DNA of 7,318 nt from Bacteroidales bacterium. Its GTDB lineage: Bacteria; Bacteroidota; Bacteroidia; Bacteroidales; UBA12077. This document shows, piece by piece, positions 1,399 to 7,192 of this stretch. The number at the start of each line of letters is the position of its first letter. Within the stretch, counting starts at the first letter, position 1. Location: positions 1-7,318 of the forward strand of contig JAUVLS010000063.1 of assembly GCA_030600625.1 (NCBI GenBank), given 5' to 3'. The translations under genes and the position numbers were made by a program. Under the pieces are notes generated by a model. It saw only the letters and a list, made by a program, of their open reading frames with translations, searched no databases and had not been told where the DNA came from.

Positions 1399-1420
1399 AT
1401 TATACTGTTTTTTATTAATC

Positions 1421-1431
1421 AGACCTAACAG
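1421..1431 (+). repeat. Left fragment of a palindrome split by the IS
   Basis: AGACCTAACAG is the exact reverse complement of CTGTTAGGTCT at 2916-2926. Joined to 2905-2926, with the duplicated AG removed, it restores a 33-nt palindrome with 14-bp perfect arms and a TCAAG loop. It lies just after the cyd genes, so the intact hairpin may have served as a terminator or as a dispersed extragenic repeat. The last two bases (AG, or CT on the transposase strand) are the inferred IS core. Confidence 0.75.
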
Positions 1432-1487
1432 TTGTGATAAATTCCAAATTTATTTTATGATTTTTTATCAATTTTTCTTTTTTTATC

Positions 1488-1618
1488 TTAGCCGGGCAGA
1501 AAGAAGGCTTCAGTCGATTCGTTGAACCGGAGTCTATCTACCGGCGGAGATTTTTTCTCCGCCTTTTGCTTTGCAAAAGAGCAGAAAGAAGGCTTAGTCT
1601 TCATCATTACCCGGAGAC
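1488..1618. repeat. Structured, GC-richer 3' end of the IS with a duplicated motif and two hairpins
   Basis: GCAGAAAGAAGGCTT occurs exactly at 1496-1510 and 1581-1595, 85 bases apart. Each copy is followed by AGTC and, about 12 bases later, by CCGGAG (1527-1532 and 1611-1616), so the duplicated unit is about 38 nt. Between the copies lie two adjacent hairpins: GGCGGAGA/TCTCCGCC (1543-1563, 5-nt loop) and CTTTTGC/GCAAAAG (1563-1579, 3-nt loop). The region follows the transposase stop codon directly. It could be the 3' structure of the transposase mRNA, a terminator, or an RNA element as in IS1111-type relatives, which carry their guide RNA at this end. The T-run after the first hairpin is on the plus strand only. 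Confidence 0.6.
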
Positions 1619-1620
1619 AA

Positions 1621-2649
1621 TTATGTCATTTGATAATTTTCAATGTATTCTTCATCTTTTTTCCATAGTGTATATATTAAAATTAATAGTTTTCTCATTA
1701 CTGCAACAAGACCTTGTTTTTTTATTATTCTTCCTTCATTTACTCTTTCATAAAATGTTTTTAATGTTTTATTACTTTGTATTGCAGACATAGCCGGCAT
1801 ATATAAAGCAGATCTTATCCTGGCATTTCCTTTTTTAGATATTTTAGTTTTTCCTTTATATTTCCCAGATTCTTTTTCAATAACATCAAGTCCTGCATAA
1901 CTTACTAACTGGCGAATACTTTTGAATAAAAGAAAACCATTTGTTTCTGTTAATACCTTTATTATAGTAATAAAACCAAGTCCTTTTACTGTTTCAATTT
2001 TTTCAATTTTTGAATAAAGTTTGTTGTCAGACTTTACCAGTTTACGAATTTCTTTCTCTACAGTTTTAAATTGTTCTTCATAAAAAGAAATCTGTTGTTC
2101 CTTAAGTTCAACTACATTTTCATAAGCCGAATGAGCATGTTTAAGTGCATGGAACTGTAGCTTTGCTATCGTTTGTGCTTTTTTAAGACTTGTGTGTTCA
2201 CGTGCCAAATCACGTATTATTTTAAAATCTTCGCTTGGTGGTACCCACAAATCAGTTCCTGTCAAATTTTTTTCTATCCCAAATTCAGCAATCATTTTAG
2301 CATCTACTTTATCGGTCTTTGTTTTTAAATTACAACTTTTTGCAAAATATTTTATTTTTTGAGCTAATTGAACACTTACCTTCTGTTCCTTATGATATAA
2401 AAAATAGGCTAATTCTTCATAATAAACCCCTGTTGCTTCCATTATAAATATTGGCTCCACTTCAGGTGTTTTATTACGTTTTTTATACCATAAATAAAAT
2501 TCTTGCATGCCTGATTGGCTATTATCAAAAGACTTTGTGCCTTTGATAACAACACTTTTATCATCATATTGAATCTTATAACAAGCATAAAAGTTATCCA
2601 TTCCAATATCTGATGCTACAACTTGTTTTATTACCTTTTTCTTATTCAT
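1621..2649 (-). CDS. IS110-family transposase (DEDD recombinase)
   Basis: This 342-residue protein has the two-part layout of IS110 transposases. The N-terminal RuvC-like DEDD domain shows Asp14 in ASDIGMDNF, Glu71 in IMEATG, and Asp113 and Asp116 in KTDKVDAKMIAE. A helical, charged, probably coiled-coil region follows (about 140-215). The C-terminal Transposase_20 domain (about 215-300) contains IETVKGLGFITI, RQLVSYAGLDV and KISKKGNARIRSAL. Ser271 in the ISKKG motif is a likely candidate for the conserved catalytic serine of this domain; Ser261 in ESGKYKG is another. In this family the enzyme excises the element as a circle and inserts it at a site chosen by an RNA from the element. Length is normal and no frameshift or lost catalytic residue is seen, so it may be active. 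The start is the ATG at 2649, preceded by AAAGGT but no real Shine-Dalgarno site. Transcription probably starts near 2853 from the box at 2859-2866, giving a leader of about 200 nt that holds the candidate bridge RNA. Confidence 0.97.
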   Translation of the reverse strand: MNKKKVIKQVVASDIGMDNFYACYKIQYDDKSVVIKGTKSFDNSQSGMQEFYLWYKKRNKTPEVEPIFIMEATGVYYEELAYFLYHKEQKVSVQLAQKIKYFAKSCNLKTKTDKVDAKMIAEFGIEKNLTGTDLWVPPSEDFKIIRDLAREHTSLKKAQTIAKLQFHALKHAHSAYENVVELKEQQISFYEEQFKTVEKEIRKLVKSDNKLYSKIEKIETVKGLGFITIIKVLTETNGFLLFKSIRQLVSYAGLDVIEKESGKYKGKTKISKKGNARIRSALYMPAMSAIQSNKTLKTFYERVNEGRIIKKQGLVAVMRKLLILIYTLWKKDEEYIENYQMT

Positions 2650-2674
2650 TACCTTTGTTTTAGATTAATAAATA

Positions 2675-2853
2675 ATAAGGATTTTTCTCACGGTCTTTCC
2701 TCGCAGTTGATACGAAATCTTTGCATATAGCATAGTTTCTCAATACTGTTCTGACTCAAAGAAAAGAACAGGATAGGATGATAATCTGTCAGTGGACATA
2801 CAATTATTGTTGTCTTGGTCTTATTCTTGCTCCTATTCTGTCCCTATTATTTA
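2675..2853 (-). ncRNA. Candidate IS110 bridge RNA (target loop clear, donor loop tentative)
   Basis: The minus strand between the promoter and the transposase start folds as expected for an IS110 bridge RNA. A 15-pair stem joins 2831-2845 to 2764-2778, with one mismatch and two G-U pairs. It closes an internal loop capped by a hairpin at 2795-2814 (eight pairs with one bulged A). The 3' side of the loop carries CUGACAG (2792-2786), which can pair over seven bases, with one wobble, to CTGTTAG of the occupied target. The 5' side carries AGACC, which can pair over five bases, with one wobble, to the other flank. Further on, UGCGAG (2705-2700) can pair with CTCGTA at the element's own end, as a donor guide would. 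The 3' end of the RNA is unknown; 2675 is set from the usual length of about 180 nt. All pairing was done by eye. Confidence 0.6.
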
Positions 2854-2858
2854 ATCAT

Positions 2859-2866
2859 CAAAGATA
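2859..2866 (-). promoter_or_regulatory. -7 box for the bridge RNA and transposase
   Basis: On the minus strand this reads TATCTTTG, a perfect match to the Bacteroidota -7 consensus TAnnTTTG. Transcription would start near 2853, just before the first stem of the candidate bridge RNA. No TTG is seen at the usual 19-21 base spacing; the nearest, on the minus strand at about 2897-2894, is about 26 bases away. Confidence 0.5.
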
Positions 2867-2902
2867 AAACTCTAACTTAATAAATATATTTACAAACATA
2901 CG

Positions 2903-2926
2903 AGGTTTCAAGAACCTGTTAGGTCT
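2903..2926 (+). repeat. Right fragment of the split palindrome with IS core
   Basis: The core AG (2903-2904) is followed by the rest of the palindrome, including GGTT, loop TCAAG, and the full right arm ending CTGTTAGGTCT. Together with 1421-1431 it forms 14-bp perfect arms. It lies about 55 bases upstream of the DAHP synthase start, so the original hairpin stood between the cyd genes and this gene. Confidence 0.75.
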
Positions 2927-6574: not shown

Positions 6575-6579
6575 AGTTA

Positions 6580-6612
6580 AAACATTCGAAGTTTTAAAAA
6601 CTTCAGATGTTT
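6580..6612 (+). terminator. Hairpin after the PorV-like gene
   Basis: AAACAT/ATGTTT and GAAGTTT/AAACTTC form a stem with one mismatch and one wobble around a 3-base loop, starting five bases after the stop codon. The bases after it are AT-rich without a long T-run, so it may be a weak terminator or only a stabilising 3' hairpin. Confidence 0.45.
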
Positions 6613-7124: not shown

Positions 7125-7192
7125 CACAAAGACGCCAAGTCGCAGAGTGTGGGATGTAGCATATTATACTTTTGCGTCTTAGCGACTTTGCG
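7125..7192. repeat. Large imperfect inverted repeat (extragenic palindrome)
   Basis: The arms 7125-7147 and 7170-7192 are reverse complements at about 19 of 23 positions, sharing CAAAG.CGC.AAG.CGCA, with a 22-base loop. The arms are richer in GC than the surrounding DNA. Similar hairpins of the type CACAAAG-CGC are common between genes of Bacteroidota. It sits between the HAD gene and the lipoprotein gene and may act as a terminator or dispersed repeat. Confidence 0.65.

Follow-up and report, generated by a model that had tools for sequence, protein, structure and literature searches.

IS621 targets palindromic (REP) sequences. Two groups of described systems are among the closest. In IS621 and other IS110 elements, as described in PMC11208160 and PMC11208158, a recombinase with DEDD and serine residues acts with an RNA encoded in the left end of the element, the core is CT, and the RNA has a target loop and a donor loop with inner stem-loops, the left guides pairing with the bottom strand and the right guides with the top strand. 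Bridge RNAs and their covariation with the target were described in PMC11208160 (2024), the main text of which contains no word starting with "bacteroid". The IS1111-group elements with seekRNA, as described in PMC11187229, have the same transposase family and an RNA-chosen target; in them the usual place of the RNA is downstream of the transposase and the subterminal inverted repeats are long. Two long non-coding regions were counted there in 26 of over 350 elements, and ISPa11 targets REP sequences. Literature searches on bridge RNAs, and on Bacteroidetes palindromes with IS110, gave nothing on the present branch among the matches listed, preprints and most subscription journals being outside their scope.

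The window (the whole stretch of Bacteroidales DNA that was analysed, 7,318 nucleotides) contains an element that shares with IS621/IS110 the recombinase type, left-end RNA, CT core, two loops with inner stem-loops and strand assignment of the guides; its RNA lies upstream of the transposase, in contrast to the usual IS1111 arrangement. It differs from the described IS110-group elements, which have short right ends, by a right end of about 190 nt with an inward-facing terminator, and from IS621 by a right guide of 7 nt instead of 4, although some IS621 orthologues also have longer guides. The features of the element are as follows.

1432-2904, minus strand: IS110-group element, 1473 bp including one CT core, delimited by the cores and the restored palindrome
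2904-2903 and 1431-1430, minus strand: core CT at both junctions
2903-2926, minus strand: left part of the target, AGACCTAACAGGTTCTTGAAAC + core CT, from joining the flanks
1418-1431, minus strand: right part of the target, core CT + GTTAGGTCTGAT, from joining the flanks
1621-2649, minus strand: DEDD recombinase (transposase), 342 aa, frame open, from domains and structure alignment
2673-2849, minus strand: predicted bridge RNA with closing stem, target loop and donor loop, from RNAalifold of three copies and the covariance model
2764-2845, minus strand: target-binding loop, stem 2831-2845/2764-2778, inner hairpin 2795-2814
2817-2822, minus strand: left target guide AAGACC, pairs with the bottom strand of GAAACC, 5/6, one wobble
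2786-2792, minus strand: right target guide CTGACAG, pairs with CTGTTAG, 7/7, one wobble
2695-2765, minus strand: donor-binding loop, stem 2757-2765/2695-2703, inner hairpin 2714-2739, three-copy consensus
2742-2749, minus strand: left donor guide ACAGTATT, fits CACAGTATCT, the right terminus of L001 and L007, not CACAACT of the window
2700-2705, minus strand: right donor guide TGCGAG, pairs with CTCGTA at the left end, 6/6, one wobble
2893-2900, minus strand: TATGTTTG in the left end, candidate -7 box of a circle-junction promoter
1445-1448, minus strand: TTTG in the right end, candidate -33 box, from the junction pattern and the consensus in PMC7366714
1543-1563, plus strand: terminator-like hairpin facing into the element, against the transposase sense
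1581-1595, minus strand: direct repeat AAGCCTTCTTTCTGC, first copy in the transposase direction
1496-1510, minus strand: direct repeat AAGCCTTCTTTCTGC, second copy in the transposase direction

The transposase contains the Pfam domains PF01548 (DEDD_Tnp_IS110) and PF02371 (Transposase_20), matches NCBIfam NF033542 (IS110 RNA-guided transposase) with 188 bits, and aligns with the IS621 structure 8wt6 (E 1.8e-25). Residues E71, D113, D116 and S261 align with the catalytic positions of IS621 (residues from PMC11208158), these positions having been counted by hand with the chain numbering assumed to be offset by two; D18, the first Asp, is beyond the aligned part and was placed by motif only. The best sequence match among solved structures was ISCro4 (9t56; E 1.3e-25), which is distant from the window transposase (94 bits over residues 38-330). 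Elsewhere in the window, directly after the cytochrome bd subunit II gene, a 33-codon frame (1297-1398) with one hydrophobic stretch was noted by eye and is possibly a small oxidase subunit.

We examined the junctions of the element independently of its RNA. A CT core is common to both, and when the flanks were joined at this CT they restored an empty site, AGACCTAACAGGTT-CTTGA-AACCTGTTAGGTCT, that folds without mismatch into a hairpin of 14 pairs (-21.8 kcal/mol); no perfect palindrome with 14-bp arms occurs in the window in its present form, loops up to 10 being considered. Since joining at the core restores this hairpin, the target is a palindrome, and the element boundaries are therefore fixed without reliance on any guide. 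The left ends of the element loci compared, where recognised, read CT/CGTAYGTT (slash, element boundary), and the right ends mostly read ACAGWAYCT/, that of the window being CACAACT/. The left noncoding end (253 nt) is longer than the right (about 190 nt; 194 nt with the stop codon and core), yet the right end is not short. The relative genome G983 has five copies with identical RNAs, all in ...aaacCT/GTGAGGT at five sites of one palindrome type. The same genome holds 15 uninterrupted ACCTSACAGGTT-N5-AACCTGTSAGGT places within 3 mismatches (8 exact), versus 1 place for the reversed pattern used as a control; in the same search G001 had 1 place (3 mismatches) and G002 had none. By analogy with G983, the window palindrome would be a dispersed repeat. 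Further imperfect intergenic palindromes were seen by eye at 6578-6612 and 7128-7190 of the window, possibly belonging to host repeat families.

Relatives were sought with the transposase in 1499 genome searches over seven rounds, some genomes being repeated, at E limits of 1e-20 to 1e-60. Genomes with a match numbered 4/5, 8/295, 7/140, 10/249, 2/20, 13/395 and 9/395 in the successive rounds, the centre genome being counted in each; the closest genome relative found was L001 (86%). Five loci came from one scan of genome contigs. Of the 7999 candidates scored in a protein search, 7174 had E <=0.001, and the best 120 were mostly on short contigs; searches among plasmids and viral contigs led nowhere. 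Of 61 element loci analysed, 36 were without a recognised left end and two (L035, L041) without a recognised right end, leaving 23. The right-end patterns were written by hand, with forms added for single elements (window CACAACT, L016, L041). Eighteen elements entered the permutations of the free and joint searches described below; left out were L040, L050, L058 and L059, which are copies of L055, and L042, which has the same RNA as L051 at another, poorer-fitting site. In L016 no left end was recognised and the model match is short; this copy may have lost its 5' side.

In the RNAalifold consensus of the window, L001 and L002, a closing stem accompanies two loops, one for the target and one for the donor, and each loop has an inner hairpin; one of these is the capping hairpin at 2795-2814 proposed in the first-pass annotation. 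The 15-pair stem that it had proposed (2831-2845 with 2764-2778) held as a stem, but 14 of the 15 positions pair (12 Watson-Crick, 2 G-U), the remaining one being, by eye, an A.C mismatch at 2837/2772. In the consensus the target-loop stem comprises 11 positions of this stem, and the outer positions are part of the closing stem 2842-2849/2673-2680. The fold of the window copy, taken alone, was only weakly stable relative to shuffled sequence (z -1.48; 19/200 shuffles as good). A covariance model, R1, was built from the three copies and used to search 46 of 68 sources, duplicates, copies and cut loci being omitted; it gave 43 matches at E up to 1, two of them antisense. In 41 of the 46 sources, the three model copies included, one match per source lay upstream of the transposase (weakest E 0.06); L021, L026, L039, L062 and L066 had none, though L021 and L039 pair 7/7 with the right flank in a free search. 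Within the R1 alignment, which was fitted to the structure and is biased towards it (and has 2/43 antisense rows), 89.9% of cells pair, compared with 61.1% in shuffled alignments and 43-49% for slid structures, the covariation score is 0.663 versus 0.215 shuffled, and two-sided changes occur at 36 of 37 pairs. Conservation of the stem in relatives had been put forward at the outset as a check on the RNA, and the model matches and pair changes agree with it. Rfam returned no family match.

Both target pairings first read by eye were recovered in the window. On the left, AGACC (2821-2817) lies opposite GGTTT (2904-2908) with one wobble, the outermost base of the six-base guide being mismatched; on the right, CTGACAG (2792-2786) pairs over seven bases with CTGTTAG, again with one wobble. 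The position of the right target required revision: the relevant CTGTTAG is the minus-strand copy that spans the right-end core (1431-1425), and not the one at 2916-2922. The motif stands at both ends of the element because the target is a palindrome.

The joined ends were also compared with the Bacteroides promoter consensus in PMC7366714, a source that reports a failure to find the -33 motif in Flavobacterium johnsoniae. For IS110, a promoter spanning the circle junction is already known (PMC11208160) and is sigma70-like in IS621/IS110 as described, whereas the candidate here is of Bacteroides type (TTTG/TAnnTTTG). The pattern TTTG-N20-TAnnTTTG spans the joined ends in 9/23 elements having both ends (a count uncorrected for descent) and is absent in 13/23, five of which are the G983 copies; the spacing in the window is N17. 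Exactly 18 bases separate TTTG from the core end in 27/48 right ends, likewise uncorrected for descent, and 15 in the window. It is possible, judging from these motifs, that a Bacteroidota-type promoter spans the circle junction.

The donor guides bear on the present state of the window copy. When the left-donor slot was compared with the own right end, 14/16 elements scored >=10/14, and the window and L014 scored 8; the donor-guide permutation (679/50,000) is weak, with only six distinct donors. Relative to L001, the window copy is three bases short at its right end, and its terminus (CACAACT, compared with CACAGTATCT in L001 and L007) has probably changed after insertion; the copy would therefore no longer be excised efficiently by its own guide. 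One reading of this is that the RNA is a bridge RNA by descent, and the window copy a decaying relic that no longer moves. The misfit of CACAACT to the left donor guide, the junction spacing of 17 rather than 20 and the wobbles in the guides all speak for decay; against it, the reading frame is open, the guides and stems are intact, L014 scores equally low at the slot yet fits its donor elsewhere (15/16 in the free search), and among the matches listed the same protein occurs on at least four contigs, one of which is probably that of the window, and a protein 99% identical to it on at least three. We consider the relic reading a real possibility, held to be somewhat less probable than its opposite; it is compatible with a bridge RNA encoded by this element and concerns the state of the window copy only.

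A rival reading is that the left-end structure, lying as it does upstream of the transposase, could be a leader controlling transposase expression, with the guide pairings arising by chance. The window by itself lends this some weight: 72/352 minus-strand CT sites did as well as the element's own site when pairings were searched freely, and the pairing there does not stand out. The argument for pairing beyond chance comes from the relatives, that is, from the model matches and pair changes above, from permuting guides against flanks, and from the region control. Free search of the left end with the 7-nt right target in the 18 elements gave 237 versus 204 permuted (0/20,000 permutations as good). 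The joint search with both guides in these elements gave 421/468 versus 367.1 (sd 5.9; 0/50,000), the own site ranking first in 11/18 and third in the window. Guide slots were then placed according to the structure, with a tolerance of three bases in either direction. After removal of 2 antisense rows and of 8 rows in which no right end was recognised, 17/33 elements had 7/7 Watson-Crick pairs between the right-guide slot and their own right flank and 25/33 scored >=12/14, the remaining 8/33 (L040, L042, L018, L048, L033, L016, L030, L031) scoring <=11/14. Permutation over 27 distinct targets gave 326/378 versus 231.8 (sd 8.5; 0/50,000); the constant CT makes up two of the seven bases of the right target and so lifts observed and permuted scores together. 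For the left-guide slot, the 16 of 23 elements with a row in the model alignment gave 155/192 versus 110.0 permuted (sd 7.7; 0/50,000), the match of L001 being poor (8/12). The guide rule is not absolute, since the right guide of the G983 copies has one mismatch and one wobble. A leader would not track the insertion flanks, and for this reason we reject it as the sole explanation and regard it as highly improbable. The loop segments follow their insertion sites in relatives, as the first-pass annotation had proposed should be tested, and its central claim of an IS110 bridge RNA with a readable programmed target is upheld. The annotation had made no mention of the donor loop and its guides to the ends of the element, of the palindromic nature of the target, of the altered right terminus of the window copy or of the structured right end. 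We conclude that the left noncoding end almost certainly encodes an IS110 bridge RNA, with the target loop followed by the donor loop.

An IS1111-like arrangement, with the guide RNA in the structured right end and the left end secondary, draws on a right end that is long (about 190 nt) and can fold, but it is rejected as equally improbable, as the region control (35 distinct targets of 47 elements) placed the target signal in the left end (z 9.67) and gave none in the right end downstream of the transposase (z -0.55), the ORF start (0.48) or the ORF end (-0.37), and the element has no terminal inverted repeat of at least 12 bp, the length range tested.

The right end has features of its own. 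An inward-facing terminator-like hairpin was found in 25/41 distinct right ends versus 1.9 expected, and an outward-facing one in 3/41 versus 0.3 expected (both expectations from simple block shuffles); the inward hairpin would stop incoming antisense transcription. A direct repeat of at least 9 bases flanks the hairpin region in 12/19 hand-picked right ends, the window included, and is <=8 in the other seven; one repeat sequence is common to the window, L001, L007 and L026, and the other groups each have a different one. A regular-expression hunt for a second hairpin marked a segment in 30/41 right ends, many plainly misplaced, and no count is therefore given for it. A small protein was also considered and rejected: by eye, the window has an open frame of about 39 codons, which stops early in L001 and lies in another frame in L016.

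Two relatives drawn from the family-level sample around L001, L030 and L031, apparently have two target loops before one donor loop, as judged by eye. The right guide of the outer loop, CGCTTAG, fits their own sites (CTAAGTG, with a wobble, and CTAAGCG), and the inner loop, which L032, L035 and L038 also have, matches the L032 site (13/14). R1 recognised the inner loop only, and not the outer one, in both elements. The outer loop folds fairly well in L031 (z -1.94) and no better than shuffled sequence in L030 (z -0.18). In nine genomes with close relatives the left end was readable in seven (one with an N gap), and stacked loops were present in L030 and L031 only. We suggest, tentatively and with more doubt than confidence, that the target loop is a stackable module in this Bacteroidota branch; if so, one element would have two programmed targets and a natural route to retargeting. 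At the left flank of L031, nine bases adjoining the left end are ACAGTACCT, the donor terminus, and the L038 site has GGTTCGGCT after the same CGCCAAC; this looks like a target sequence replaced by donor sequence.

For the bridge RNA encoded in the left end, the following mechanism is envisaged. The RNA would be transcribed and bound by the transposase, and its first loop would read the target, the left guide pairing with the bottom strand of ...GAAAC-CT and the right guide with the top strand of CT-GTTAG, while the second loop would read the joined ends of the element itself. With target and circular donor held together on the RNA by the DEDD/serine recombinase, strand exchange would take place at the shared CT. 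The programmed target is one arm of the intergenic palindrome whose restored form is given above, and the element thus inserts in non-coding sequence.

The genomes around these Bacteroidota relatives supply a set of bridge RNAs in which guides and targets can be read together, and the 7-nt right guides and the covariance model may be used for finding more. The aim at non-coding palindromes suggests how such elements stay harmless.
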